NCBI RefSeq assembly: GCF_008329435.1 | Contig: NZ_NPKN01000001.1 | Span: 186,001-250,000 of the forward strand | Direction of reading: 5' to 3' | Source: Rhodanobacter sp. T12-5 | GTDB lineage: Bacteria > Pseudomonadota > Gammaproteobacteria > Xanthomonadales > Rhodanobacteraceae | Length of the DNA: 64,000 nt | In this document: positions 30,824 through 61,926 of the stretch, piece by piece | How positions within the stretch are numbered: the first letter of the stretch is position 1 | Layout: every line of letters starts with the position of its first letter | Program-made: the position numbers and the translations under genes | Notes under the pieces: model-generated | What the model was told of the DNA's origin: nothing | Seen by the model: the letters and a program-made list of their open reading frames with translations, nothing else | Database searches by the model: none

Positions 30824-31027
30824 CTACTGCGTTTGCGCGTCGATCTGCTTGCGTTGATCCTCGGCTTGCTTGTCGACGATTTTCTGCACGTCCTTGGCTC
30901 GTTGCTCGTCAGCCCTCAAGCCGTCGAACGGGGTGGCGACATCAGCCGCCTTTGCCTTCGGTTCCGGCGGCTTGCTGGAGCAGGCGCCCAAGGCGAGCAC
31001 GCAGAGCAGGAGCGGCAACTTCTTCAT
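30824..31027 (-). CDS. Small lipoprotein, unknown function
   Basis: A 67-residue protein: signal peptide MKKLPLLLCVLALGAC with an LGAC lipobox (Cys16), then a Lys/Ala/Asp/Gln-rich, probably helical tail (DVQKIVDKQAEDQRKQIDA) with no hydrophobic segment. It is expected to be an outer- or inner-membrane-anchored lipoprotein; Ser-Ser after the Cys favours outer-membrane sorting. It is divergent from the SDR gene and convergent with sppA. No family assignment. Confidence 0.75.
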   Translation of the reverse strand: MKKLPLLLCVLALGACSSKPPEPKAKAADVATPFDGLRADEQRAKDVQKIVDKQAEDQRKQIDAQTQ

Positions 31028-31130
31028 GATGTTCTCGCGTGTGATTGAAGTGGCAGTGTCCCGCCGCGCCGGGACGCGGGCAAGCGGTGTGCCGCTATGC
31101 CTGCTGCAACGGACGTTTTAAGCTGCGCCC

Positions 31131-31913
31131 ATGAACAGCCGCCCCGACGCCTGGCACCTGCATGGCCATACCGCCCTGATCACCGGTGCCAGCAAGGGCA
31201 TCGGTCATGCCGTCGCACGGGAGTTGGCCGGCCTCGGCGCCAACCTGCTGCTGGTCGCACGCGACGAGGACTACCTTGAACAGGTGCGGGTGGAACTGGG
31301 TGACGACTTCCCCGATATCGACGTCCTGGCGTTTGGCGCGGACCTGACCGAGGCGGAGGAGCGCCTGGCGGTGTTCGACTGGATTGCCGATCTGGGTGTC
31401 CCGCTGTCGCTGCTGGTCAACAACGCTGGTGGCAACCAACCGGCGGCCACGCTGGACTACAGCCTCGACGAGGCACGCGCGATCTTCGAGCAGAATCTGT
31501 TCTCCGCGTTCGAAGTGAGCCGGCTGGCGCACCCGCAGCTGGCGCAGCATGCCAACGCGGCGATCGTCAACGTGGGTTCGGTGTCGGGGATCACGCACGT
31601 GCGCACTGGCTCGCCCTATGGCATGAGCAAGGCGGCGCTGCACCAGCTCACCCGCAATCTAGCGGCCGAATGGGCGGTGGATGGCATTCGGGTCAACGCG
31701 GTGGCGCCCTGGTACATCCGCACCCAGCGCTCGGAACCGGCCCTGGCCGACACCGACTATCTGGATGAAGTGCTCGAGCGCACGCCGCTGAAGCGGATCG
31801 GCGAGCCCGAGGAGGTCGCCGCCGCGATCGCCTTCCTGTGCTTGCCTGCGGCCAGCTACATCACCGGCCAGGTGCTGGCGGTGGATGGCGGATTCCTCAA
31901 CTACGGTTTCTGA
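31131..31913 (+). CDS. Short-chain dehydrogenase/reductase (tropinone-reductase-like)
   Basis: A 260-residue classical SDR. The cofactor motif TGASKGIG lies at residues 19-26, NNAG near 101-104, the catalytic Ser in VGSVSGI, YGMSK (Tyr-x-x-x-Lys) near 163-167 and a closing ITGQVLAVDGGF. These features make it an NAD(P)H-dependent oxidoreductase; tropinone-reductase-like proteins are closest in pattern, but the substrate is unknown. It stands alone, 18 bp before the convergent DegV-family gene. Confidence 0.92.
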   Translation: MNSRPDAWHLHGHTALITGASKGIGHAVARELAGLGANLLLVARDEDYLEQVRVELGDDFPDIDVLAFGADLTEAEERLAVFDWIADLGVPLSLLVNNAGGNQPAATLDYSLDEARAIFEQNLFSAFEVSRLAHPQLAQHANAAIVNVGSVSGITHVRTGSPYGMSKAALHQLTRNLAAEWAVDGIRVNAVAPWYIRTQRSEPALADTDYLDEVLERTPLKRIGEPEEVAAAIAFLCLPAASYITGQVLAVDGGFLNYGF

Positions 31914-31931
31914 GGGCCTCAACCGGGTTGC

Positions 31932-32876
31932 TCAAAACTCGGCGACGTGGTCCTCGGCGGCGAAGCCCAGCGTCACCGCGCCTTCGCCCACGTTGACCAT
32001 GCCGGTGATGCTCATCGGTGCTTCCATCAGCTCGACCCCGCATTCCTCGCACGCCTGACGCAGCTCGATATAGCCGGGCAGGTGCGAGAGTACGGCCAGA
32101 TCGCCGCCGTAGCTCGCGCACACCATCGGAACCAGCAGGCCGGCACGAACCCGTTGCGCGGCATAACCGAAAAGCGCCTGCGCGCCTTGTTCGAACCCGC
32201 GCACCTTGCCTACGGGTCCGGTTTCGCCGCGAAAACAGCGCAGCAGCGGCTTGATGTCCAGTGCCGAGCCCAGCATCGCACTGAACAGGCTGACGCTGCG
32301 GTCGTTTTTCTTCTTCGCCCGCGCGCGCAGGTAGTACAAGTCGCGCGGCAACATGTAGCCGTAGGAGTGATTGGCTATGTGGGTCAGGCGCTCGCGGATC
32401 ACGGCCGGCGTTTCGTCCGCCGCGATCAATCGGGCAGCTTCGTACACAGCCGGCGCGGCACCGGCAAAGATGTTCCGGGTGTCGATGACCCTCATCATGA
32501 ACGGACCGGGTACGCCGGCCTGTTCGCGCACCTGACGGTAGTTTTTCAGGATCGCGAAGCTGGCGCGGTTGACGTTTTCGTTGATCGGGCTGCGCGTGGC
32601 GGTGATGGTCAGGCAGAACACGCAGTCCTGCTCCAGCACCAGCTTGTCGAGGAACAACTGCTGCACGCCTTCGACCGGACAGGGTTCGGTTTCCGCCGAA
32701 TGACTGCGACTGCCCAGCCGCCGGTCGATGAAACGCTGGATTTCAGCCGGTTCGCGATCGTCCATGAAGACCTCATCGTCCACACGGACAGTGATGGGCA
32801 TCACCGCGACGTCGTGCTGTTGCAGGAAGGTCTGCGAAAGATCGCAGGCCGCATCGATTGCCAGACCCATCCGCAT
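31932..32876 (-). CDS. DegV family protein (fatty-acid binding)
   Basis: A 314-residue protein starting MRMGLAIDAACDLS, the DegV N-terminal pattern in which the Asp-Ala/Ser-x-x-Asp-Leu segment contacts the bound fatty acid. Further DegV features are VFCLTITATRSPINENVNRA (the TSGT-like loop is altered to TATRSP) and the helical C-terminal lobe. FakB-type proteins of this family present fatty acids to the FakA kinase, but no fakA is seen here. A GGGGG stretch 7 bases before ATG 32876 supports the start. An unusual Cys-rich segment near residue 285 (ACEECGVEL) is present. Confidence 0.85.
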   Translation of the reverse strand: MRMGLAIDAACDLSQTFLQQHDVAVMPITVRVDDEVFMDDREPAEIQRFIDRRLGSRSHSAETEPCPVEGVQQLFLDKLVLEQDCVFCLTITATRSPINENVNRASFAILKNYRQVREQAGVPGPFMMRVIDTRNIFAGAAPAVYEAARLIAADETPAVIRERLTHIANHSYGYMLPRDLYYLRARAKKKNDRSVSLFSAMLGSALDIKPLLRCFRGETGPVGKVRGFEQGAQALFGYAAQRVRAGLLVPMVCASYGGDLAVLSHLPGYIELRQACEECGVELMEAPMSITGMVNVGEGAVTLGFAAEDHVAEF

Positions 32877-33316
32877 TGCGTGACCCCCGTCATGAATGGC
32901 AAGCGAAACATAGCATGCGCGCCGCGGTGCGGTTGGGCGATCGGGACTGCGTCTGCCCATCCCGTCCAGCCGGGCATCCGCTTCGTCCGCGGCCGCTGAA
33001 CCCACGCTGTTGGGTGGATTCCGAATGTACAAAATTTGTTGACAACACGTAAAGCAAGCATGATAAAGGCGACCGGAGACGGAAGCGCCAATTGTGCGGA
33101 CGGGTCCAGGAAAGAAGCGCCGGGAGAAGCGTGCCGGCTGCAACCTGCCTGTCGAGACAGGTATGCGGCATGTTCACGTAGCGTTATTTGCCTGTTAGTA
33201 TCAGGTCGGATCAAGCTCGTGGGTCTGGAGTTCACCGGTCTGGCAAATGCAGGCCAAGTCGCAGTTTTTGGGCAGAACCTTTTCTGACCCATGGCAATAA
33301 TTAATCGGAGGGTGTT
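32877..33316. other. Long divergent regulatory region before the TonB receptor gene
   Basis: This 440-bp stretch separates the DegV gene (leftward) from the TonB-dependent receptor gene (rightward). It holds a good sigma70-like promoter (33039-33067) and then ~245 bp of leader without an open frame that I can support. The leader contains short inverted repeats such as CCTGTCGAGACAGG (33149-33162). A coding peptide could hide here, but the only start codons open frames that lack a matching ribosome-binding site. Confidence 0.5.
33039..33067 (+). promoter_or_regulatory. Sigma70-like promoter of the TonB receptor gene
   Basis: TTGACA (33039-33044), a perfect -35 element, is followed after 17 bp by GATAAA (33062-33067), four of six matches to the -10 consensus. 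The surrounding sequence is AT-rich for this genome. Transcription from it would give a leader of about 245 nt before the receptor ATG at 33317, which has a strong GGAGGG ribosome-binding site at 33307-33312. A second possible extended -10 (TGTTAGTAT) lies near 33193-33201. Confidence 0.55.
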
Positions 33317-36217
33317 ATGAAACTTGGGGTCACAAAACTTTCTTCGGCAGTTCGTCTGGCGCTTTCGCTGGGCGCTGTCATCGCGGTCGGCGCCTCGGGC
33401 ACCGTATTCGCACAGGACACCGGCGCGCAGGACGCCGCCAACCAGCCGAGCCAGAAAAAGGCTTCGACCCTGGAGACGGTGGTTGTAACCGGTTCCCGCG
33501 TTCGTCGTGTCGACCTGGAAACGTCCAGCCCGGTGCTGACCATTGACCGCGCGCAGATCCAGGCCAGCGGCAAGCAGACCCTCGGCGACCTGGTCCAGCA
33601 GATCCCGGCGATCGCCGGTGCCGCGACCAACCCGAGCGTCAACAACGGCGGCGGCGACGGCGCCTCCACCGTGTCGCTGCGCGGTCTGGGTTCCAACCGT
33701 ACCCTGATCCTGGTGAACGGTCACCGCGTGCTCAACAACGACATCAACACGATCCCGGCCAGCATGGTCGAGCGCATCGAAGTGCTGAAGGACGGTGCGT
33801 CCGCGACGTACGGCTCCGACGCGATCGGCGGCGTGGTCAACTTCATCCTGCGCAACGATTTCCAGGGTGCGCAGATCAGCGCCAACTATGGCGAGTCGGA
33901 TCATTCCGACGGTGCCCAGCGCGGTTTCGCAGCCACCTTCGGTACCTCGTCGGACAAGGGCAACATCGTTGCCGGCATCGACTACAACAAGTTCGATGCG
34001 ATCTCGTCGGCGAACCGCGACTACTCGAAGTACGCCACCTATCTGTACTCCGGCTCGGTCTTCAACGCCGGTTCCAGCCGCAACCCGAACGGCCGCGCGT
34101 TCCTTTCCGACGCGAACGGCGGCGGCACCGTGACGCTGGCGAATCCCGTTGCCGGCAAGACCACACGGGCTGACTATCGTCCGTACAACAAATTGACCGA
34201 TGCCTACAACTACGCAGCGCACAACCTGATCCAGACCCCGCAGGAACGTACCAACGTCTTCGCGCTGGCCAACTACAACTTGACCGACAACGTGTCGGCC
34301 TATTTCGACGCGTTTTACAACAAGACCACGTCCAATGCTGCATTGGCCGCACTGCCGTTCGACGCGAACAGCGATGGTGTGACGATCTCGAAGGACAACT
34401 ACTACAACCCGTTCGGCCAGGACTTCGGCCCGGGTACGGATGCCGCCGGCGCCCCCACCGCTTACAACTACGTGAGTCGCTTCACCAATCTGGGTCAGCG
34501 CGTTCTGCACTACTCGACCACCACCGGCCAGGTCGTGGCCGGTCTGAAGGGTAACTTCGGTGCCGACAGCAGCTGGCAGTGGTTCGGTGACCTCAACTAC
34601 GGTCATCAGGGCACCCAGCAGCAGAGCCCGGGTTACGTGTATTACAACGGCCTGAAGCAGGCACTTGGTCCGTCCTTCCTGGATTCCGACGGCGTCGTGA
34701 AGTGCGGTTCGGCTGGCAATGTCATCGCCGGATGCACACCGGTCAACATCTTCAACCTGAACGATCCGGCGACCACCGCTGCGCTCAAGAACTTCGCCGC
34801 TGCGCCGTTCTATCACACCTTGCAGACCTCGCGTCGCGTTGAAGTTGGCGCCAACGGCAGCCTGTTCGACCTGCCGGCCGGTACCGCCCAGTTGGCCGTG
34901 GGCTTGTCGTACGACAAGGAATACCAGAATTACCAGGTCGACCTGATCGCGAAGACGCAGGGCCTCGACGGTACCTGCTTCATTTCGCAGGAGGCCTGTT
35001 CGACGCCGCTGAACGGCAGCTTCACCGACAAGGAAGCCTATTTCGAGTTGTTCGTGCCGGTACTCGCTGACCTGCCGATGGTCAAGTCGTTGAACGTGAC
35101 GATCGGTTCGCGCTTCTCCAAGTACAACACCGCCGGCAGCAGCTGGAACCAGAAGTTCGGTGTGGAATGGCGCCCGATTGACGACCTGCTGTTGCGTGGT
35201 ACGGTCGCTGGTGTGTTCCGCGCACCGAACATCAATGAGCTATACAACGGTGCCACCGGCAGCGCGCCACAGGTGACCGATCCCTGTCTCCACCTCTCCG
35301 CCGCTGAGCTTGCGCAGCATGCAGCCGCCTGCCAGTTCGTGCCGCCGGGCTTCGCTGGCAGTGGCAATTCGCAGACCACCGGCGTGATCTCCGGTTCCGT
35401 GGCTGCGGGATACAACTTGAAGCCGGAACACGGCAAGTCGTATGACTACGGTTTCGTCTACGACCCGAGTTTTGCTCCCGGCCTGTCGATCAGTGCCGAT
35501 CTGTGGCGTGTAACCTTGGATGACACGATTACCCCGGTCGCCGCGCAGACCGTCCTCACCAGTTGCTTCCAAAATGAGTCCAGCCCGTTCTGCTCGCTGA
35601 TCCATCGCAACGTCAGCGGCGATTTCTCCTTCATCAGTCAGCCGACCGTCAATCTGGGCAAGGTGAACACGAAGGGTATCGATGGCAGCATCAAGTACAA
35701 GATTCCGCACTTCGATATCGCTGGCCAGAACTGGGGCGACCTTACGGCCTCGCTGGATGCGACCTATCTGACCCGGTACGACAACGACACCGCGCCGGGC
35801 CAGCCGGGCGACGTTATCGTCCATATGGCGGGTCATTACAACAACCAGTATGGCAACTACACCCGCTGGCGCGGTCTGGGCCAGTTGAACTGGACCAACG
35901 GTCCGTGGAACGTCAACTACACCGTGCGTTATGTCGGTGCGGTGACCACAGGTTGGGCGGATCTGCGCGAGAACTCCTCTGCTGATATTGGCTTCAAGGG
36001 CGTGGAGTTGAAGTCTGATGCACAGATCTACAACAACCTCGCGTTCGGCTATAACCTCGCGGCTTACCACACCCGCCTGGATGTGGGCGTCAACAACCTG
36101 CTCGACAAGCAGCCGCCGTTGATGTACCAGAACAACGTGCTGAACGCGAACACCGACATCAACACGTACGAGCCGATCGGCCGCTACTTCTGGGGTCGCG
36201 TGACCGTGACGTTCTGA
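33317..36217 (+). CDS. TonB-dependent outer-membrane receptor
   Basis: A 966-residue receptor with a signal peptide (cut near GTVFA-QD, residue ~32), a TonB box-like LETVVVTGSRV, a plug domain (residues ~60-185, including SLRGLGSNRTLILVNGHRV and ATYGSDAIGGVVNFIL) and a 22-strand barrel ending GRYFWGRVTVTF with a terminal Phe. It lacks an STN signalling domain. The family imports siderophores, cobalamin, sugars or peptides using the proton-motive force; no substrate is visible here, and no fecI/fecR pair is adjacent. Its own promoter and terminator surround it. The two sulfotransferases and the 2OG oxygenase start 85 bp beyond the terminator. Confidence 0.95.
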   Translation: MKLGVTKLSSAVRLALSLGAVIAVGASGTVFAQDTGAQDAANQPSQKKASTLETVVVTGSRVRRVDLETSSPVLTIDRAQIQASGKQTLGDLVQQIPAIAGAATNPSVNNGGGDGASTVSLRGLGSNRTLILVNGHRVLNNDINTIPASMVERIEVLKDGASATYGSDAIGGVVNFILRNDFQGAQISANYGESDHSDGAQRGFAATFGTSSDKGNIVAGIDYNKFDAISSANRDYSKYATYLYSGSVFNAGSSRNPNGRAFLSDANGGGTVTLANPVAGKTTRADYRPYNKLTDAYNYAAHNLIQTPQERTNVFALANYNLTDNVSAYFDAFYNKTTSNAALAALPFDANSDGVTISKDNYYNPFGQDFGPGTDAAGAPTAYNYVSRFTNLGQRVLHYSTTTGQVVAGLKGNFGADSSWQWFGDLNYGHQGTQQQSPGYVYYNGLKQALGPSFLDSDGVVKCGSAGNVIAGCTPVNIFNLNDPATTAALKNFAAAPFYHTLQTSRRVEVGANGSLFDLPAGTAQLAVGLSYDKEYQNYQVDLIAKTQGLDGTCFISQEACSTPLNGSFTDKEAYFELFVPVLADLPMVKSLNVTIGSRFSKYNTAGSSWNQKFGVEWRPIDDLLLRGTVAGVFRAPNINELYNGATGSAPQVTDPCLHLSAAELAQHAAACQFVPPGFAGSGNSQTTGVISGSVAAGYNLKPEHGKSYDYGFVYDPSFAPGLSISADLWRVTLDDTITPVAAQTVLTSCFQNESSPFCSLIHRNVSGDFSFISQPTVNLGKVNTKGIDGSIKYKIPHFDIAGQNWGDLTASLDATYLTRYDNDTAPGQPGDVIVHMAGHYNNQYGNYTRWRGLGQLNWTNGPWNVNYTVRYVGAVTTGWADLRENSSADIGFKGVELKSDAQIYNNLAFGYNLAAYHTRLDVGVNNLLDKQPPLMYQNNVLNANTDINTYEPIGRYFWGRVTVTF

Positions 36218-36243
36218 TCCAGAACGCCCAGGTCGCTATAATC

Positions 36244-36275
36244 AACCGCGCGGTGCAAGCCGCGCGGTTTTTTTT
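36244..36275 (+). terminator. Rho-independent terminator after the TonB receptor gene
   Basis: A perfect 10-bp stem, AACCGCGCGG (36244-36253) and CCGCGCGGTT (36260-36269), with a six-base loop runs into eight consecutive T residues (36268-36275). This is the strongest intrinsic terminator in the window. It sits 27 bp after the receptor stop and 28 bp before the first TPR-sulfotransferase start, so the downstream set may need read-through or its own promoter. Confidence 0.9.
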
Positions 36276-36302
36276 GTCTTCATATTCAAGGGCATTGACA
36301 GC

Positions 36303-38138
36303 TTGGCCACGCAGCAGAGCGACATCGAACACATCATGCAGCTGTTGCACAGTGGACGTGCCGGCCAGGCCGAACAGTCGTGTCGTCATCTGCTCGATGG
36401 CCAGCCGGATGATGAAACCGCGCTCACCCTGTTGGGAATTGCCTTGCAGCAACAGGGGCTGCCACTCCGCGCCGCGGCGGTTCACGAGCGGCTCACCGTG
36501 TTTTACCCGGAGCAGGCCAACCACTGGATCAATCTGGGAAATGCGCTGCGTGAAGGCGGGCTCACGGCGCAGGCCGAGGAAGCATACGTGCTGGCCTTGC
36601 GGCTGGCACCCGAACATGCCGGTATCCACGCCAATCTTGGCCTGCTGTACAAGGAAATCGCCGACTATGCCAAGGCACGCCAACACCTGGCGCAGGCGGC
36701 GCGACAGCTGCCCGACGATCATGAGATCTGTATCTACGCGGCGATGGCCTGCTGCGAGTGCGCCGACAATGCGGAAGCAGCCCGGTTGGTGAGCGGGTGG
36801 CGCAACTGGCTGCCGCTCAGTGACGATCTGACCATCGATCTGGCGTGGATGTTCACCCAGATGGGCCGCATATCCGACGCCGAGCAGCTGCTTGGCGGCT
36901 CGATGCAGCTCGACGGTGCGCGCCCGCGAACGCTCGCGCGCATGGTGGGGCTGCTGGAAAGGGTCAATCGACTGGACGAAGCGGACGTGATCCTGGCCAG
37001 CCTGCCGGATCCAGCAACGTTGCGCGACCCGGTCGACCAGCTCGAGGTGATCAGCGCGATGGGTGTCATGGCGATGCGCGGTCGCGACCCGGCAGCGGCG
37101 CGGTCATTGCTTCAGCGCCTGATCGCGATGACCAAGGAAACCAACCAGCTCGGCAATCTGTACTTCTCGATGGCCAAGGCCTGCGATAAACAGGGCGACA
37201 CTGCTGCCGCCATGGACGCCCTGGCCAAAGCGCACGCGGCGCAGATGGTCAAGGCTGCGCAACTGGTACCCGAACTGCTGTTGCCTGATGTGCAGCCGCT
37301 TTCGCCGGCGCTGATCCGCATGACACCAGCACAGGCTGCCGACTGGCCACCACCGTTGCGGTCGGCGGACGAGCCGCCCTCGCCGATTTTCGTGGTTGGC
37401 TTTCCGCGCTCCGGCACGACCATGCTCGAACAGATGCTGGACGCGCATCCCACGCTCGCCTCGATGGACGAACAGCCATTCCTGCAGGGCGTCACCGAGC
37501 GGGTGCTCGCGTTGGGGCTGCAATATCCGGAAGCGCTGGGCGAACTCGACCCTGCCACGTGCGCTGCGCTGCGGCGCCATTACTGGGAGCAGGTGAGTAC
37601 GGTCGTCACGCTGCAGCCTGGTCAACGGCTGGTCGACAAGAACCCGCTGAACCTGCTGCATCTGCCATTGATCTGCCGGCTGTTCCCCGATGCGCCGATC
37701 ATCCTGGCGCTGCGGCATCCCTGCGACGTGATCCTCAGCTGCTACATGCAGAACTTTCGTGCGGCGGGATTCCAGGTGTTGTGCTCGTCGCTGGAGCGGT
37801 TGGCGCGAGGCTACGTCAACGGCATGCAGTATTGGATCCACCACGAGCAACTGTTCAAGCCGCACGTGCTGCACTTGCGCTACGAAGATCTGCTGGACAA
37901 TTTCGACGCCGAGGTGGAGCGCATCGGCGCCTTCATCGGCATCGATGATGCGCTGTCGCTGCGCAATTTCCACCAGCATGCGCAACAGAAGGGTTTCATC
38001 AGCACACCGAGCTACGCACAGGTCGTGCAACCGCCAAACAAATCAGCGGTAGGCCGCTGGCGCCGCTACGAGCAGGAGTTCGCACCCCTGCTTCCCATCC
38101 TGAAAGACGTCATGGAGCACTGGGGCTATGACCGTTGA
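36303..38138 (+). CDS. TPR-repeat sulfotransferase (first of two)
   Basis: A 611-residue cytoplasmic-looking protein. About eight TPR-like helical repeats occupy residues 1-330 (for example GLTAQAEEAYVLALRLAPEH). The C-terminal half is a PAPS-dependent sulfotransferase: the 5'-phosphosulfate loop FPRSGTTM is near residue 367 and the 3'-phosphate motif RHPCDVILS near residue 470. Related TPR-sulfotransferases are annotated for proteins, peptides or glycans, and animal tyrosylprotein sulfotransferase shares the catalytic fold. No signal peptide is present. The start is TTG at 36303; ATG at 36336 is the alternative. Its end overlaps the 2OG oxygenase start by 11 bp, so the two are translationally coupled. 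Confidence 0.9.
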   Translation: MATQQSDIEHIMQLLHSGRAGQAEQSCRHLLDGQPDDETALTLLGIALQQQGLPLRAAAVHERLTVFYPEQANHWINLGNALREGGLTAQAEEAYVLALRLAPEHAGIHANLGLLYKEIADYAKARQHLAQAARQLPDDHEICIYAAMACCECADNAEAARLVSGWRNWLPLSDDLTIDLAWMFTQMGRISDAEQLLGGSMQLDGARPRTLARMVGLLERVNRLDEADVILASLPDPATLRDPVDQLEVISAMGVMAMRGRDPAAARSLLQRLIAMTKETNQLGNLYFSMAKACDKQGDTAAAMDALAKAHAAQMVKAAQLVPELLLPDVQPLSPALIRMTPAQAADWPPPLRSADEPPSPIFVVGFPRSGTTMLEQMLDAHPTLASMDEQPFLQGVTERVLALGLQYPEALGELDPATCAALRRHYWEQVSTVVTLQPGQRLVDKNPLNLLHLPLICRLFPDAPIILALRHPCDVILSCYMQNFRAAGFQVLCSSLERLARGYVNGMQYWIHHEQLFKPHVLHLRYEDLLDNFDAEVERIGAFIGIDDALSLRNFHQHAQQKGFISTPSYAQVVQPPNKSAVGRWRRYEQEFAPLLPILKDVMEHWGYDR

Positions 38139-38736
38139 ACCATCGCCGGTGATCGCGTTGCCGGTAGCGGACGTACGCAGCTACGTGCAGACCTTCGATG
38201 GTGCGCTGCCGGCGGCTTTTTGCGAGCAGCTGATTGCCTCGTTCAAGCAGACCGCCGACCGGCACATCGTGCGCAGTCCCGGCTGGCGCGCCGGCCTCGA
38301 CGCCAGTTCCTGGACCGAGCTCGATGTCTCGGCCCTGGCCGACGAAGCGTTCCTCGGCTACTTCTACAAGCAGATCGACGATTACCTTGCCGCTTACAAC
38401 CAGCGCCTTGGCCTGAGCATCCCGGTGCCGCCTTCGCCGCAGATATCCCCGATGCGCATCAAACGCTACGTGGCCGGCAGTGGCGAGGCGTTTCAGCCGC
38501 ATTTCGACGCGATCTACGAGGTGGCAAACCGCTATCTGGTGTTCCTGTGGTATCTCAACGACGTGGCGGAAGGTGGCGAAACGGAGTTCTGCGATCTGGG
38601 CATTACCGTACCGGCGCGCGCCGGCAAGCTGCTGATGTTTCCGCCGTATTGGATGTACCAGCACGCCGGCCGGCCACCGCTTTCGAACGACAAGTACATC
38701 CTTTCGCTGTACCTGCTGTTTCCACAAACGCGCTGA
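38128..38736 (+). CDS. 2-oxoglutarate/Fe(II)-dependent oxygenase (prolyl-hydroxylase-like)
   Basis: A 202-residue double-stranded beta-helix oxygenase. The iron ligands are predicted as His125 and Asp127 (PHFD) and His179 (YQHAG), with Lys189 (NDKY) in the place of the usual 2-oxoglutarate-binding Arg/Lys. MRIKRYVAGSGEAFQPHFD and LWYLNDVAEGGETEF are typical of bacterial prolyl-4-hydroxylase-like enzymes, so hydroxylation of a protein or peptide substrate is likely but unproven. It overlaps the first TPR-sulfotransferase by 11 bp and is followed 27 bp later by the second, suggesting the three act together. Confidence 0.9.
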   Translation: MTVEPSPVIALPVADVRSYVQTFDGALPAAFCEQLIASFKQTADRHIVRSPGWRAGLDASSWTELDVSALADEAFLGYFYKQIDDYLAAYNQRLGLSIPVPPSPQISPMRIKRYVAGSGEAFQPHFDAIYEVANRYLVFLWYLNDVAEGGETEFCDLGITVPARAGKLLMFPPYWMYQHAGRPPLSNDKYILSLYLLFPQTR

Positions 38737-38763
38737 CACGGACGCTGGCCCGGACGAGCGTGC

Positions 38764-40491
38764 ATGGCGCGCTCGCCGACAACGATGACGGGAATCCCCT
38801 TGAACGACAACCTCGTCCCGCTATCCGCGGTTGCAATGGTCGGCGCGTCACAAGCCGACTGGGAGCCGTCCCGCGCCGAGCTGGCACGGGTGGACCAGTG
38901 GCTCGCCACGGCAATGGCGAGCGGGTCGCAGACAGCCTTGCGCATCCTGAACGACCATTTGCACTCGACCTCGGCGGACGCCTGGCTGGGCTACGGCCGC
39001 ATCGTGCTGCAGCGTGGTTATCCATCGTTGGCTGCGGCCGTGCTCGAACGGGCGCTGGCCCATCAGCCGACATCAGTGGCGCTGCGCTACTGGTTCTCCC
39101 TTGCGTCGTGGCAGGCCGGCGATGCCGCAAACGCTGAAGCCGGCTTGCGACGGCTGCTGGCCGACAACACCACAGACGCCCGCGCTGCCATGCTCCTTGG
39201 CCAGGTGCTGCGTGGCCAAGGCAAGCTCAACGCAGCGGCAGGTGGGCTGGCCGAACGGGTGGAGGCAGTCCTCGGCAACACGCAGGGCGTGCTCGACTGG
39301 GCCCAGTTCATGCGCGAGTGCCAGCGCCAGGACCTGGCAGCCGAATTGTGCGAACGCGAGCAGGCGCGCGGCAACGCCGACCCGCGCCTGTCCGCGTTGA
39401 TGGGCACTCTTGCGCAGGAGCTGGGTCGTTTCGAATCGGCGCGCAAGCACTATCTGGACGCGATCGCGCACGGCATCGACCAGAATCTGTGGTTCGTGCT
39501 TGCCAGCCTGGCCTCGATCGAACGTTACCGCGACCGCCAGCACCCGGACTTTGCGCTGTTCGAGAGCGGTATCCGCAATCCTGCACTGTCGCCGCGCGCG
39601 CGGGCGGGGGTCCTGTTCGCGCTGGGCAAGGCGTTTGACGACATCGGCGATTTCGCGTCGGCCGCGGGCGCCTGGCGTGAGGCCAACGAGCTGATGCGCC
39701 CGCTAGGGTCGTGGTCGCGAGGAACGTGGCAGGCATTCGTGGCGGCACGGATCGCCAGTGCGCCGATGCCGGTCAGTCGCGCCGTGGCGCGCGACAGCGT
39801 GCCGATCTTTGTGGTGGGTTTGCCGCGCACCGGTACCACCCTGGTGGCGGAGTTGCTGGGTCGTCACCCCGACATACGCAATCGCGGCGAGCTGCCCACG
39901 CTGGCTTACCTGGCCGAACGGCTGGCCGGGCTCGATGCAACGCAGCGGGCGGCGGCAGTGGACGATGCGGCTGCGATCTATCTGGCACACCTGCGGCGGG
40001 ACGACGCCCCGACGCCCTGCTACATCGACAAGAATCCGCTCAATTTCCGCTACCTGGACACCATCGCGGCGCTGTTTCCCGACGCCCGCGTGATCTACTG
40101 CCGCCGCCAGGCGCGCGACACCGCGCTGTCGATCTGGAGCCAGTCGTTCGCCCATGACGACTATGGCTTCGCCGGAGACTTCCATGACATCGCCGCCATG
40201 GCGACCGGGTGTGGTGAATTGATGGCGCACTGGCAACGAAGTCTGTCGATTCCGATCATCACGATCGACTACGAGCAGGTCGCGGCAGATCCGGCAACGA
40301 CGATCGCGCAACTGATTGCGCAGCTTGGGCTGACGCCGTTCGATCCGGCACAGGCGGACCATGGAAGCACGTCGGTGATAACGTCAGCCAGCCAATGGCA
40401 GGCCCGTCAACCGATCCACCAGCGTTCGGTCGAACGCTGGCGCAACTATGTCGATTACCTGCCCGAGTTGATCGAGCTGTTCCCGGAGTAG
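38764..40491 (+). CDS. TPR-repeat sulfotransferase (second of two)
   Basis: A 575-residue protein with N-terminal TPR-like repeats (residues ~60-330) and a C-terminal sulfotransferase domain. The PAPS-binding loop is LPRTGTTL near residue 352, with a 3'-phosphate-binding segment RQARDTALS near 447. It differs from the first sulfotransferase in sequence and is slightly shorter, so it is a diverged paralogue rather than a duplicate. ATG 38785 is a possible later start. It ends 26 bp before the convergent beta-hydroxylase gene. A second sulfation step or a second acceptor site is a reasonable guess. Confidence 0.9.
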   Translation: MARSPTTMTGIPLNDNLVPLSAVAMVGASQADWEPSRAELARVDQWLATAMASGSQTALRILNDHLHSTSADAWLGYGRIVLQRGYPSLAAAVLERALAHQPTSVALRYWFSLASWQAGDAANAEAGLRRLLADNTTDARAAMLLGQVLRGQGKLNAAAGGLAERVEAVLGNTQGVLDWAQFMRECQRQDLAAELCEREQARGNADPRLSALMGTLAQELGRFESARKHYLDAIAHGIDQNLWFVLASLASIERYRDRQHPDFALFESGIRNPALSPRARAGVLFALGKAFDDIGDFASAAGAWREANELMRPLGSWSRGTWQAFVAARIASAPMPVSRAVARDSVPIFVVGLPRTGTTLVAELLGRHPDIRNRGELPTLAYLAERLAGLDATQRAAAVDDAAAIYLAHLRRDDAPTPCYIDKNPLNFRYLDTIAALFPDARVIYCRRQARDTALSIWSQSFAHDDYGFAGDFHDIAAMATGCGELMAHWQRSLSIPIITIDYEQVAADPATTIAQLIAQLGLTPFDPAQADHGSTSVITSASQWQARQPIHQRSVERWRNYVDYLPELIELFPE

Positions 40492-40516
40492 ATCGCCTGC
40501 CGCAGTGCGCGGTTGA

Positions 40517-41857
40517 TCAGATCGCGGCGTGGGCGTTGAAGTCGCCGATCGCCGCGACCAGGTCGGTCACTGCGGCCCGCTCGACTTCGCTCAGATCAGG
40601 GTTCCAGCTGTCCAGGATCAGCACCACTCGGGTCTCGTCGCTGCGATTCCACGCCTCATGCTCGAAGGTGTCGTCGAACGTGACGCACTGGTCGGGTTGC
40701 CACACATGGGTTTCCCCGCCCACGCGCAAGGCGCAGTCCGGCGGCACGATCAGCGGCAGGTGGGTGACCAGGCGGGTATTGGTGACCCCGCGGTGCGGCA
40801 GGATATGCGTACCCGGACGCAGCACCGAAAACAGCGTTTCCGGCGCGTGATCGCGGATGTGCACCAACGCTGCCTCTTCAAGCAGTGCCGCCGTTTGTGG
40901 GCAACTTGCGCAATGCGCGTCGAAGCGTTCGCCGTGGCGATAAAAGAAATAAGCGTCCCAGGCCGCGGCGCGATCGCCGGACGCTCGCAGATAGGCTTCG
41001 GCTTCTTCGGGCCGGCCCGATTGCAGAAAGGACTCGAGGTTCTGCTCGTCGGCGATGACGGCGCGCAGCTCTTCGCGGATCGAAGCAGCGCCGGCCTCCA
41101 GCGCCGCTTGCCATGGAAACCGTTCGCGCGGATAGAACGGCTGCGACGGGATGCCGGGAAAGTACAGGAACTTCGGTTGCTGACGGGGATCGGGCAGGTT
41201 CGCCGGTTGCTCATTGAGATAAATCGCGAGGCACTGATCCACGCGCGCCAGCTCGGAGCGGCCATAGCGCTCGCGCAATGGCTCGATGACCCGATCGAAC
41301 ACCTGGCGTCGGCCCGCGTCCACATAGTTCATGGCGCGCTTGACGGTCTGGCGCAATTCCGGCGCGGTCGAGGCATCGCTGAGCCAGCGTCCCTGAGCCT
41401 GCGCGGTGTTTATGGCGTTGAAGTACGCCAGCAGGGCCTCATGCGCCTCACCCAGCCGCTCCAGCGCGATGGCCAGGCGCAGGCGCGCCATGAACATGTT
41501 GGGTGCCAACTGCAGGCAGCGCCGCAGCGTCGCGACCGCGGCGGTGAGGTCGGCGCCGCTCAGCTGCACGGTGCCGAGCTGGTTCAATGTGGCTGGATCG
41601 TCCGGATTTGCCCGGTCGGCGGTCGCCAGCAACTCGACGGCTTTGGCGGTGTCGCCGCGAGACAGATACTCGCCAGCCAGAAAGCGCAGCGCTTCGATGT
41701 CGTCCGGCTTTGCCGCGAGCAGGCGCAGATAGGATTGTTCCGCCAGCAACAAGTCCCGATTGCGAAGATGCATGCGCGCCCTGTCGCGCAAGGTGGCCGG
41801 GCTGGTGCTTGACGCCTCATTCATCGCTGGATCCACACTCGAACGGACAGCCTTCAA
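40517..41857 (-). CDS. TPR plus aspartyl/asparaginyl beta-hydroxylase
   Basis: A 446-residue protein with TPR-like repeats in residues ~25-160 and a C-terminal aspartyl/asparaginyl beta-hydroxylase domain. Predicted iron ligands are His355 (LPHRG) and His400 (FEHEAWN), and Arg in VVLILD-flanking RVVLIL could bind 2-oxoglutarate; this family lacks an acidic iron ligand. It is convergent with, not part of, the sulfotransferase operon, and separated from it by 25 bp. Family members hydroxylate Asp/Asn in peptides or modify lipid A acyl chains (LpxO type); the TPR portion points to a protein substrate, an inference. Confidence 0.88.
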   Translation of the reverse strand: MKAVRSSVDPAMNEASSTSPATLRDRARMHLRNRDLLLAEQSYLRLLAAKPDDIEALRFLAGEYLSRGDTAKAVELLATADRANPDDPATLNQLGTVQLSGADLTAAVATLRRCLQLAPNMFMARLRLAIALERLGEAHEALLAYFNAINTAQAQGRWLSDASTAPELRQTVKRAMNYVDAGRRQVFDRVIEPLRERYGRSELARVDQCLAIYLNEQPANLPDPRQQPKFLYFPGIPSQPFYPRERFPWQAALEAGAASIREELRAVIADEQNLESFLQSGRPEEAEAYLRASGDRAAAWDAYFFYRHGERFDAHCASCPQTAALLEEAALVHIRDHAPETLFSVLRPGTHILPHRGVTNTRLVTHLPLIVPPDCALRVGGETHVWQPDQCVTFDDTFEHEAWNRSDETRVVLILDSWNPDLSEVERAAVTDLVAAIGDFNAHAAI

Positions 41858-41951
41858 TTATAGGCCGATCGCCAAAGTGGCTCATGCCTGCGCCGGCCGA
41901 AAGAAACGCCCGCTGCGGGGCGCTTCGTGTGGGTGTCGCCGTGACTGCGGA

Positions 41952-42875
41952 TCAATAGCGCGGGATGCTGGTGTCCACTTCGCGCGCCCAAGCATCCATG
42001 CCGCCCTCGACGTTGTGCACGTTGGTGAATCCGTGTGCGGCAAAGCGCTCTGCCATGGCGCGACTCGATACGCCGTGGTGGCAGATGAAGGCCAGCGGGG
42101 TATCTTTCGGCAGCGCGGCCAGGCTCTCGTAACCTTCGTCTTCCAGCACGCGCGCTTGTGCCAATGGCGCGGCCTGCGCGCGGCCGTGGGCCGGGCGCAC
42201 GTCGATCAGGGTGATGTCGCCGGCGGCCAGTCGCTGCTGCAACTGCTGCACGCTGAGCGAGCCGATTTCCTGCGCGCCGGGAAACTTCAGGCTCAGGCCT
42301 TCGCCCTGCACGGTGGACACCCAGTCGATCACGATGCCTCTGGCGCGCTGCGCGCTGGCGGGGTCGAAATGCACTTCCAGACCATTTGCATGCGCAACGA
42401 TGTCGCCCTCGCCAGCCGGCGCCAACTGGAACCCGGCGCTGTGGTCGGGGCCGATCTCCAGATGCAGCGCCACGCCTTGCGCATTCGCAGTGCCCTGGCG
42501 GATCGCCTCGGCGGCGGCGTCGGTGATGGTGATTTCCGGCGGCGTGCGATCCGGCGCGGCCACGCCGAACAAGGCATGCAGCTCACCGCTGCCGTACATC
42601 TGGCGGATGATGTCGGCACCGCCGACCAGCTCGCCTCCGACGTACAGCTGCGGAATCGTCGGCCAGTCGCCGTAGGCCTTGATGCCTTCGCGGATTTCGG
42701 GATCGTCCAGCACGTTGACCGTGTGATAGTCGGGCAACAGTTCGTTCAGTGTATTGGTGGCGGCGGCGGAGAAACCGCACATCGGCTGCCGGCGATCGCC
42801 CTTCATGAAAAGCACCACGCGGTGATCCTTGAGCAGGCTTTCGATACGTTCGCGGGTAGGGGCGTCGAGGGACAT
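41952..42875 (-). CDS. Monothiol glutaredoxin fused to a degenerate A-type domain and a rhodanese domain
   Basis: A 307-residue fusion. Residues 1-105 are a Grx4-type monothiol glutaredoxin with CGFS at residues 33-36 and WPTIPQLYVGGELVGG, suited to binding a [2Fe-2S] cluster with glutathione. Residues ~113-200 resemble an A-type iron-sulfur carrier (HesB/IscA) by pattern (EITITDAAAEAIRQ, FDPASAQRARGIVIDW) but contain no cysteine at all. Residues ~205-305 form a rhodanese with the catalytic Cys265 in CHHGVSS. The protein has only two cysteines, one in each active end domain. It is a single-gene unit with 94 bp between it and the beta-hydroxylase. Confidence 0.9.
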   Translation of the reverse strand: MSLDAPTRERIESLLKDHRVVLFMKGDRRQPMCGFSAAATNTLNELLPDYHTVNVLDDPEIREGIKAYGDWPTIPQLYVGGELVGGADIIRQMYGSGELHALFGVAAPDRTPPEITITDAAAEAIRQGTANAQGVALHLEIGPDHSAGFQLAPAGEGDIVAHANGLEVHFDPASAQRARGIVIDWVSTVQGEGLSLKFPGAQEIGSLSVQQLQQRLAAGDITLIDVRPAHGRAQAAPLAQARVLEDEGYESLAALPKDTPLAFICHHGVSSRAMAERFAAHGFTNVHNVEGGMDAWAREVDTSIPRY

Positions 42876-43113
42876 GAGGGAGCTCCAGCAGGTGGCAAGT
42901 CGAAAAGCACAATGATACGCCGTCCGATATGTCGTCGAAGCCGGCTGCGTTCAAGGCGGGCGCGCGTCAATGGCATCGAGGCATTCGCCGAACAGGCGCA
43001 TGGCATCGTCCAGTTCGTCGACAGGCCGGGTGTCGACAGGCCGAGTACCGGACAACAGGCCGGCCACAACCGGCGATTGTGGTGCGGCGCGCAGCGAACC
43101 CGTTAAGTCGGGG

Positions 43114-59811: not shown

Positions 59812-61926
59812 TTACAAGGCGAGGGCGAACTTGACCATGACCTGGCCTGCCTTGTAGCTGTCGTTGAACTGATAGTCGTAGGTGCCCTCGAGCGACCAGC
59901 GGTTGCTGCCGGCGAGCAGGAGACCGGCGCCGAGGTCGGCAAGATTCCGTCCCGTCTTCACGCCGACGGCGGTGAATGACGGGCCGCCAGAGGCAAACGC
60001 CGCGGTCTGGTCCATGCTTCCGCCGTTGAACGAATGCAGCCAGTTGGCATGCACTTCGGGCCGCACGGTCAGGCCGTCCGGGCTGACCAGATCGCGCGCG
60101 AGTTTCACGCCCAGACCGGACTGCACGAAGTCGTGTTTCTGCGCGGCAATGTCGAGATTCATGGCATTGCCGCCGAACTCGCGGTAGCCGGGAATCTTCA
60201 AGCGGGTGTACTGCAGTGTGGCGGTTGGCGTGATTACGCTGCGCCCGTCACCGACATGGAAGTGGTAGCCGGTGGCAGCGAACGCGGTGTACTGATGGCC
60301 GCTGTATTCGGCACGCGCGGTCTCGTTGACGCCCGGAAACGAGACTGAGCGCGAGCTCGAATAATCGTCAAGCCCATAAACCAGAGCGGCGTTGACGAAC
60401 CACCGGCCCGGCGCATAGCCCAGATAGGCGGTCGCCTGGGAGGAGCGGATGTTGCCGCGGCTTGCCGAGTCGAGGCCGTCGAGGGTGGAGCGGGCATGGC
60501 GGATACCGAAACCGGCGGTGACCGCCTGGCCGAGCGGAATGTCCAGACCGAGTGCGACACCGTACGCGTTGTCGGTGTAGCCCTCGTACCCCTCGCTGCC
60601 GCGCTGCGTGCCGGCAAGGCCGAACGTGCCGCCCCACAGCTGGGGCTTGCGCTTGTCGCCGTCGCATGTGGCATCTTCCGGGCGCTGCGTGTTGCGTTCG
60701 TCGGGCTGGTCATTCTGGCCGCAGGGCTGGATGGCCTGCATGTGCGCGGCCCACAGTCCCTGGAACTGCTGAACGACGCGGTAGCTCGCCTGCGGCGAGG
60801 CGAGGCTGGCCGTACCCGGCTGCAGCTGTGCCAGCGCATCGGCGACGGCGGTGGCGTCCGGCAACACCGTGATGGCGGTCAGCAGCGGCGCAGTTGCGGG
60901 CGTCAACGGCAGCGCGTCGATAATCGGCGCGATGATCGGGGCGGTCGGGTTGCCTACCGGGGCCACCACGTCCGCCAGCGGAATCTGCGTCGCGATGATC
61001 TGCACCAGGCCATTGGTGGTGGGTGCGGCGGAGAACAGGTAGCGCGTGGTATTGCTGGTGGCCGTGACGGTGCTGCCGCTGGTGCCGCTGGTCGCGTCGA
61101 CGATATTGAACTGGCTGCCGACCGCGATCGGGCCGGTGACGGTAACGTGGACCTGCAGGGCGTTGCCGATGCTGGCGGCGCCGACCGGTACGATCTTGCC
61201 GTAGACCGACGGGCTGAAGATCGTGGTGTTGATGGTTCCCGCCACCGGGATCGCGAAAGCGCCGGCCACGTTGAGGGTATTGGTATCGAGGGACCAGGCC
61301 GCGGCATTGGCCTGGCCGGTGATCAGCGCATTGCCGCCGACCACGTTGATCTGCCTGAGCCCGCTGGCGGCACCCACGGCGCCATCCAGGATGCTGTTGC
61401 CCTGCAGCGTCAGCGTGCCGGTGCCGGCGCCCGCCGAGTTGGTGATCGCAGCCTTGACGGTCTGTCCCTCGCCGACGTTGATGGTGCCGTCACCGGCGAA
61501 GTCCATCGTCGATCCCGTGTTGCTGGTAAAGCCGCCGTTGAAATTGACGACGCCGGTGCCGGCCACCGAGAACGTCGTCGAGTAGACCGGCCCGTTGAAG
61601 GTGACCGTGTTGGCATTGGTGCCGGCGGCGATGTCGAGGAAGGTGGCGCCCGTGGCGCCCACGAATCCGGTGACGGTCGAACTGCTGTTGAACAGGATGC
61701 TCGCCGTATTGGCAGCGTCGGTGGTGATCGCGCCTCCGGCATCGTTGCCTGTATTGATGTCCTGATGGCCGACGGTGAGCAAGCCCGGACCCTGCGTGTC
61801 GACGCCGCTGGCTACGCCAACCGGGTTGACCACGCCAGGCAGTACGACGACTTCGCGGGCCACGCTCAGTGGCAGCCAGGCGACCATGGCTGAGCCGAGG
61901 AGGGGAATAAGGAGGGTTTTTTTCAA
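59812..61926 (-). CDS. Autotransporter with outer-membrane beta-barrel domain
   Basis: A 704-residue protein starting at a TTG (61926, with AGGA 7 bp before it): LKKTLLIPLLGSAMVAWLPLSVA is a signal peptide. The passenger (about residues 25-400) is Gly/Thr/Asn-rich with parallel beta-helix-like repeats (GFTSNTGSTMDFAGDGTINVGEGQTV). A linker with several charged residues and two cysteines (CGQNDQPDERNTQRPEDATC) leads to the autotransporter barrel (about 430-704, starting KPQLWGGTFGLAG). The passenger is short for this class. Its target or role (adhesion, aggregation) cannot be told from sequence. No accessory gene lies beside it. Confidence 0.88.
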   Translation of the reverse strand: MKKTLLIPLLGSAMVAWLPLSVAREVVVLPGVVNPVGVASGVDTQGPGLLTVGHQDINTGNDAGGAITTDAANTASILFNSSSTVTGFVGATGATFLDIAAGTNANTVTFNGPVYSTTFSVAGTGVVNFNGGFTSNTGSTMDFAGDGTINVGEGQTVKAAITNSAGAGTGTLTLQGNSILDGAVGAASGLRQINVVGGNALITGQANAAAWSLDTNTLNVAGAFAIPVAGTINTTIFSPSVYGKIVPVGAASIGNALQVHVTVTGPIAVGSQFNIVDATSGTSGSTVTATSNTTRYLFSAAPTTNGLVQIIATQIPLADVVAPVGNPTAPIIAPIIDALPLTPATAPLLTAITVLPDATAVADALAQLQPGTASLASPQASYRVVQQFQGLWAAHMQAIQPCGQNDQPDERNTQRPEDATCDGDKRKPQLWGGTFGLAGTQRGSEGYEGYTDNAYGVALGLDIPLGQAVTAGFGIRHARSTLDGLDSASRGNIRSSQATAYLGYAPGRWFVNAALVYGLDDYSSSRSVSFPGVNETARAEYSGHQYTAFAATGYHFHVGDGRSVITPTATLQYTRLKIPGYREFGGNAMNLDIAAQKHDFVQSGLGVKLARDLVSPDGLTVRPEVHANWLHSFNGGSMDQTAAFASGGPSFTAVGVKTGRNLADLGAGLLLAGSNRWSLEGTYDYQFNDSYKAGQVMVKFALAL

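Follow-up and report, generated by a model that had tools for sequence, protein, structure and literature searches.

What do two sulfotransferases and two hydroxylases do beside a gene for a TonB-dependent receptor (TBDR)? The question is raised by a 64,000-nucleotide stretch of the Rhodanobacter sp. T12-5 genome (contig NZ_NPKN01000001.1, positions 186,001 to 250,000; hereafter the window), in which five such genes lie together at 33317-41857. The answer that we tentatively favour, with slightly less than even confidence, is that they form a receptor-dedicated protein-modification kit, whose enzymes would act on the receptor before its export as FlmG does on flagellin. The receptor gene (33317-36217, plus strand, 966 aa; PF07715, 7.4e-26; PF00593, 1.1e-33), preceded by an upstream region at 33039-33316, is followed on the same strand by ST1 (36303-38138, 611 aa, TTG start), in which tetratricopeptide repeats (TPRs) precede a PF13469 sulfotransferase domain (2.5e-37), by OX (38128-38736, 202 aa), a prolyl-4-hydroxylase-like 2-oxoglutarate (2OG)-Fe(II) oxygenase (PF13640, 8.8e-10), and by ST2 (38764 or 38800 to 40491, 575 or 563 aa), a second TPR-sulfotransferase identified by PF13469 (5.5e-36), TPRs and coding score. 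ASP, a TPR-aspartyl/asparaginyl beta-hydroxylase, is convergent on the minus strand (40517-41857 or 40517-41824, 446 or 435 aa), with TPRs followed by PF05118 (2.7e-48). All five frames are open and match their profiles, as an initial annotation made from the sequence alone had proposed, and the TPRs that it placed in three of the four enzymes were found in ST1, ST2 and ASP, with none in OX. The receptor is the sole non-enzyme of the cassette. Its N-terminus is signal-peptide-like, and no signal peptide is apparent by eye on the enzymes.

The catalytic domains indicate what kind of substrate may be involved. Both sulfotransferases belong to PF13469, scoring 129.7 (ST1) and 125.3 bits (ST2) against a cut-off of 27, and the predicted loops for 3'-phosphoadenosine-5'-phosphosulfate (PAPS), FPRSGTTM in ST1 and LPRTGTTL in ST2, were found in the translations. 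ST1 comprises a TPR superhelix (residues ~1-320) and a domain (~355-611) resembling the tyrosylprotein sulfotransferases (TPSTs). The top structural match of its AlphaFold2 (AF2) model (pLDDT 89.7) was TPST1 with a gastrin peptide (Z 23.6, 246 aligned residues, rmsd 2.8), followed by two other sulfotransferases (Z ~19), and the N-terminal superhelix matched consensus TPRs and O-GlcNAc transferase. By sequence, the ST1 domain alone found protein-tyrosine sulfotransferases first (2e-11) and SULT4A1 next (3.7e-7), whereas heparan 3-O-sulfotransferases reached only 0.03 or weaker. R369, E390, K446 and S479 are invariant in 18 relatives, and the first three align with TPST active-site positions; their catalytic roles are presumably those of the TPST residues. 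The TPR-sulfotransferases may sulfate protein tyrosine.

In OX, the motif HxD..H and a basic 2OG ligand (H125, D127, H179, K189) are invariant in seven homologues, and the nearest solved structures are of prolyl 4-hydroxylase (3itq/5hv0, 1.8e-9), and proline would be the residue expected to be hydroxylated. ASP scored 164.2 bits against a PF05118 cut-off of 22.6, its H355, H400 and R410 are invariant in 14 homologues, and its catalytic part is nearest to human ASPH (5jqy, 1.5e-40). The iron ligands read initially (H125/D127/H179 and H355/H400) are therefore among the invariant residues. ASP lies far below the NCBIfam equivalog cut-offs for the lipid hydroxylases OlsC (102.3 of 450 bits) and LpxO (61.6 of 500 bits). 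Among solved structures, all three types of catalytic domain are closest to protein-modifying enzymes, in agreement with the earlier assignment to families acting on proteins or peptides.

The initial annotation had tied its proposal to conservation of the gene order in relatives, and the order is kept far beyond the genus. Sixty genomes were searched (the own genome, 35 of the genus and 24 of the order), and 63 receptors of the subfamily were compared, namely 60 from other genomes, among the matches listed, above 600 bits, and three of the own genome. A sulfotransferase lies within 3 kb of 50 of these, and directly downstream on the same strand at less than 400 nt in 46; five of the 13 receptors lacking a near sulfotransferase end less than 2 kb from a contig end. 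The receptor tree contains several linked subclades. None of the 10 genomes with at most two PF13469 matches holds these receptors, versus 32 of the other 50 (Fisher 1.7e-4, a guide only, as the genomes are related). Locus L033 has the exact order of the window, and L034, L035 and the Dyella loci L097, L098 and L100 keep the gene order but have flipped strands or an additional sulfotransferase (L093, L094 and L096 repeat L033, L035 and L034). A scan for OX in named genomes confirmed 115 matches; 79 loci were compared, some matches having been merged, in Rhodanobacter, Dyella, Xanthomonas, Pseudoxanthomonas, Lysobacter, Steroidobacter, Solimonas and metagenome bins; 74 have a sulfotransferase, 65 a TBDR and 43 ASP, and in 52 of the 65 with a TBDR the sulfotransferase follows directly as defined above. 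The receptor and OX sets partly overlap. Recurrent flanking genes vary between lineages, and many of their clusters are shadow frames; a further cassette partner sought among them was rejected, since they read by eye as lineage-specific housekeeping synteny (phosphoenolpyruvate carboxykinase-like, DegV, short-chain dehydrogenase/reductase). ASP and OX also have a second home, as a pair lacking a sulfotransferase, at 6361-8317 of L031 (own genome, C12:803k) and in L125 and L128-L130, with a TBDR further off in L130.

The association is repeated within the genome itself. The assembly (3.98 Mb) holds 13 PF13469 matches and 23 Plug matches, and a TBDR adjoins seven of the former, which are spread over six loci: two in the window and one each at C6, C18:122k, C8:142k, C12:647k and C18:152k (binomial P ~1e-8, assuming 3600 genes and counting the two of the window separately). 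C6 carries TBDR, sulfotransferase and ASP, that is, the window cassette minus OX and ST2, and at C18:122k a TPR-2OG oxygenase (PF13759) lies between TBDR and sulfotransferase. C15 encodes a fusion of aspartyl/asparaginyl hydroxylase (AspH) and sulfotransferase, C14:112k has an AspH-sulfotransferase pair with no TBDR within its 18 kb stretch, and three remaining matches fall in frames of ~310 aa. Single chains with both AspH and sulfotransferase domains were detected by Pfam in L029 and L136, and, by phmmer, 19 of 46 open reading frames (ORFs) that match an AspH fusion part also match a sulfotransferase. Beside the TBDR/TPR-2OG/TPR-sulfotransferase locus on C18 lie two large proteins (L025, 15-7193) whose repeats read from sequence as sortilin/BNR-like.

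To view the same enzymes from the sulfotransferase side, 40 of the listed PF13469 matches were sampled (roughly one in four, chosen by eye, together with five that came from other families), in partial overlap with the receptor set; one (L217) yielded no sulfotransferase and one (L223) is a short contig. A TBDR lies within 3.5 kb in 22 of the 40 and slightly further off in two (L220, L226), and Oar-type receptors adjoin the sulfotransferase in L216 and L225. Other neighbours are a trimeric autotransporter (Rhodanobacter, L206), an M4 protease (L196), a kumamolisin-like protease (L201) and, in L221 and L229, proteins that match no Pfam family above its cut-off and whose starts, by eye, resemble signal peptides.

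On plasmids, ST1 matched 36 PLSDB records, of which 22 were examined and 20 had gene tables, themselves incomplete (H14 and H15 were unusable). An exported protein is encoded within three listed genes of the TPR-sulfotransferase in 15 of the 20 stretches, some of them close relatives of one another, as judged against gene density only. These neighbours are an autotransporter (Enterobacter, Lelliottia, Kluyvera, three Azospirillum, Thalassospira and Pacificitalea), flagellin (Paroceanicella) or a TBDR (two Pseudoalteromonas, two Novosphingobium, and Asticcacaulis, with AspH); one stretch combines TBDR, AspH and three sulfotransferases. A Comamonas endophytica plasmid (L181, 1-13355) carries a run of a cadherin-domain protein, TPR-sulfotransferase, TolC, ABC and HlyD (type I secretion) and cysC (APS kinase).

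Across the phylum, ST1-like matches at E 1e-30 occur in 67 of 150 sampled genomes, the own one included. Outside the order, one locus was taken from each of 32 genera and 30 of 47 flanking proteins were tested; the neighbour is a TBDR in seven genera, and flagellin (on both sides), an SWM/Big_12 protein and an OMP2-like protein in one each, the remaining tested neighbours being varied. In four genomes of one family, SEC-C motif proteins adjoin TPR-sulfotransferases (L239, L246 and L250 by Pfam, L264 by sequence only); this motif is also that of the SecA tail.

Between receptor and ST1 lies a terminator-like hairpin (36244-36269, plus strand), with a GC-rich stem of 11 bp then six T, 26 nt past the receptor stop codon; ST1 begins ~30 nt beyond it. 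Such a site within 130 nt of the receptor end was found in 67 of 95 distinct same-strand TBDR-sulfotransferase pairs (73 of 103 rows including repeats), compared with 25 of 1001 random windows, and the letters of the stem vary among lineages. Over the whole window the number of terminator-like sites, six, is close to the 6.3 expected, so it is the position and the recurrence of the hairpin that speak for it. Terminators behind receptors are ordinary; the notable feature is that ST1 is so close, with little room for a promoter of its own. A sigma-70 scan, which carries little weight, found no promoter, and Rfam gave no match across 31000-43000. The hairpin may be a leaky attenuator that permits read-through to ST1. 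The intergenic distances along the cassette are, in order, 85 nt, an 11-nt overlap, 27 nt and 25 nt. Because of the hairpin, the single unit proposed initially fits ST1-OX-ST2 and includes the receptor only with read-through, and ASP is on the opposite strand. Elsewhere in the window, at 59812-61782, a 656-aa ORF is repeat-rich and passenger-like.

What, then, would these enzymes modify? Three substrates had been named at the outset: the receptor itself, a secreted peptide that it imports, and a small precursor encoded elsewhere. The last is unsupported: no precursor gene fits the cassette gaps, and in eight upstream regions compared the sole common frames occur on both strands and so look like conserved DNA rather than a gene, the rest of the genome not having been searched for precursors. 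The evidence favours the receptor; a gene list in PMC10040529, considered below, counts for a peptide. With a cassette whose one non-enzyme is the receptor, with enzymes of protein-modifier type, three of the four bearing TPR arms, and with the same type of sulfotransferase lying elsewhere next to different exported proteins, modification of the neighbour before export is the simplest reading. That the TPRs recognize a shared polypeptide, as first suggested, is not proven; it has become likelier given the AspH-sulfotransferase fusions and the client binding by the TPR part of FlmG.

The enzymes would work in the cytoplasm, consistent with the lack of a visible signal peptide and with PAPS and 2OG being cytoplasmic. 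Their TPR superhelices would bind the newly made, unfolded receptor; OX and ASP would hydroxylate it, at Pro- and Asp/Asn-type residues, and the TPST-like domains would sulfate either tyrosine or a newly introduced hydroxyl. Sec would then export the modified receptor for insertion into the outer membrane, where loops made negative by sulfate may help to bind ligand. A leaky terminator behind the receptor gene would keep the receptor abundant and the enzymes scarce. A more specific version, which we consider rather doubtful, is that the TPST-like domains sulfate the new Asp/Asn/Pro hydroxyls, giving sulfated beta-hydroxy-Asp/Asn or hydroxyproline on the exported receptor; the idea comes from the single-chain AspH-sulfotransferase fusions, which would do both steps. 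To our knowledge, no such protein modification is known.

The receptor was examined for residues that might bear these marks. Its AF2 model (pLDDT 78.5) matches BtuB, Cir, ChuA and siderophore receptors (Z 33.5 to 28.4, among the best 50 matches), and a name for the ligand was dropped because sequence and fold matches are scattered over these. In ten columns, conservation reaches at least 90% among the 50 linked receptors and at most 50% among the 8 unlinked ones. Four of these columns are Asp/Asn (181, 190, 227, 335); all ten are weak candidates, as the unlinked receptors are few and divergent. Two tyrosines, Y223 and Y575, are conserved within an acidic context, and this holds for linked and unlinked receptors alike.

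Several observations weigh against a receptor-dedicated kit. No receptor residue clearly tracks the enzymes in the sequences compared: Asp/Asn columns that follow the presence of ASP numbered none in two lineages and one (222) in a single lineage, and acidic-context tyrosines are not enriched in the receptors (0.14 vs 0.125 per receptor). Eight of the 63 receptors are truly unlinked, with flanks above 5 kb and no sulfotransferase near, and their genomes hold sulfotransferases elsewhere. Conversely, sulfotransferases lacking an exported-protein neighbour occur in the own genome (C13, L027), in seven sampled loci (L194, L195, L197, L198, L200, L203, L207) and, within three listed genes, on five plasmid stretches (H8, H10, H18, where a TBDR is further off, H23 and H27). 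The neighbour rule is strong within the order and weaker outside (10 of 32 genera). Finally, runs of sulfotransferase, GT8 glycosyltransferase and autotransporter on plasmids could mean sulfation of sugars, and one locus (L242) has, by eye, the look of a polysaccharide cluster.

Some of these observations would be explained if the TPR enzymes were general modifiers of several secreted and surface proteins, with receptors as common, highly made clients. We judge this rather unlikely. It would account for the unlinked receptors in sulfotransferase-holding genomes, the orphan sulfotransferases, those of the own genome that adjoin TBDRs of other subfamilies (L023, L026, L028), and those beside the trimeric autotransporter and the M4 and kumamolisin-type proteases, but the directional adjacency to one receptor subfamily across several bacterial families points to a dedicated client. 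Glycans offer another substrate. If the sulfotransferases acted on envelope glycans or lipids and the hydroxylases on lipids, the receptor would be a bystander; glycosyltransferases lie beside some plasmid sulfotransferases, L242 would fit, ASP does match the OlsC and LpxO models, far under their cut-offs, and PMC4110880 infers that two sulfotransferases encoded in clusters with glycosyltransferases yield a sulfated exopolysaccharide. However, the window cassette contains no glycosyltransferase or lipid gene, and the solved structures nearest to ST1, OX and ASP are those of protein modifiers, with heparan 3-O-sulfotransferases far behind, making this explanation improbable.

The enzymes might instead make or change the ligand of the receptor, a peptide or small molecule, or a pheromone like a ribosomally synthesized and post-translationally modified peptide (RiPP), which the receptor would take up; this we hold to be unlikely. 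There is a Xanthomonas precedent in RaxST, which sulfates the peptide RaxX (PMC6637879), and a table in PMC10040529 lists for Pontixanthobacter, under nearly consecutive numbers, lasso B2, nucleotidyltransferase, sulfotransferase, AspH, sulfotransferase, PqqD and asparagine-synthase, possibly for a sulfated, hydroxylated lasso peptide. Compared by this listing alone, the run resembles the cassette in having a sulfotransferase next to an AspH and differs in its lasso-peptide genes and in naming no receptor; it raises the standing of a peptide substrate, at the expense of the receptor. In the own genome, peptidase-like genes, as we read them, lie beside two further TBDR-sulfotransferase pairs, and at C14:112k an AspH (L030, 8570-9325) with a weak Nif11-like C-terminal match just below the Pfam cut-off is paired with a short sulfotransferase (7578-8474). 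The Nif11-like type is that of a RiPP leader. Against an imported product, the gaps admit no precursor ORF, the cassette has no exporter, maturation protease or inner-membrane importer gene, and TPR-sulfotransferases also adjoin exported proteins that import nothing. Co-inheritance of the block by horizontal spread, with no joint chemistry, seems very improbable: flanking genes do differ by lineage and some paralogue loci score low on the codon model of the window, yet the partners have been flipped, rearranged and duplicated and remain together, and AspH-type and sulfotransferase parts share one ORF in the 19 of 46 cases mentioned.

If the receptor is indeed the client, bacteria would have cytoplasmic enzymes dedicated to sulfating and hydroxylating outer-membrane receptors and adhesins, a counterpart of the tyrosine sulfation of animal receptors and of extracellular hydroxylation, and ST1-like TPR-sulfotransferases and bacterial TPR-AspH proteins would gain a function. 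Related cassettes are also present in named Xanthomonas genomes, and the receptor, as the proposed substrate, is directly accessible to mass spectrometry.

Several known systems come near to the proposed one. HMW1C and BAHT (TibC-type) glycosyltransferases act in the cytoplasm on the exported adhesin whose gene adjoins their own; they place sugar on adhesins, whereas sulfate and hydroxyl on a TonB receptor are proposed here. ST1 shares the catalytic fold and the aligned R, E and K positions with TPST1 and TPST2 (5wrj, 3ap1). Animal TPSTs, however, are type II Golgi membrane proteins without TPRs, whereas ST1 starts with a TPR superhelix. Human ASPH and the prolyl 4-hydroxylases share the His/His/Arg and HxD..H..K catalytic patterns with ASP and OX. 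ASPH too has TPRs and works in the endoplasmic reticulum on EGF-like domains, whereas ASP has no apparent signal peptide and its gene adjoins a receptor. RaxST of Xanthomonas oryzae, from the same order of bacteria, is likewise a bacterial sulfotransferase modelled on TPST2 and acting on a polypeptide (PMC6637879), but its substrate is the small secreted peptide RaxX with its own exporter RaxAB, and the word "tetratricopeptide" is absent from the main text of that paper; at the window cassette no precursor fits the gaps of 85, -11, 27 and 25 nt, and no exporter gene lies beside it. A parallel in logic is FlmG of Caulobacter crescentus, which O-glycosylates flagellin: as described in PMC7591256, it is a cytoplasmic enzyme that binds its client ahead of secretion through an N-terminal TPR part and has its transferase in the C-terminal part, and TPR-sulfotransferases are likewise seen beside flagellin genes. 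FlmG differs, in that description, in transferring pseudaminic acid rather than sulfate, in working without hydroxylases and in having flagellin rather than a receptor as client. Among the titles and abstract openings of open-access PMC articles, the scope of our search, which excludes subscription papers and preprints, no description of a TBDR-TPR-sulfotransferase-hydroxylase cassette was found. The enzyme families and the logic of modifying a neighbour are known; novelty would lie in the chemistry and in the client.

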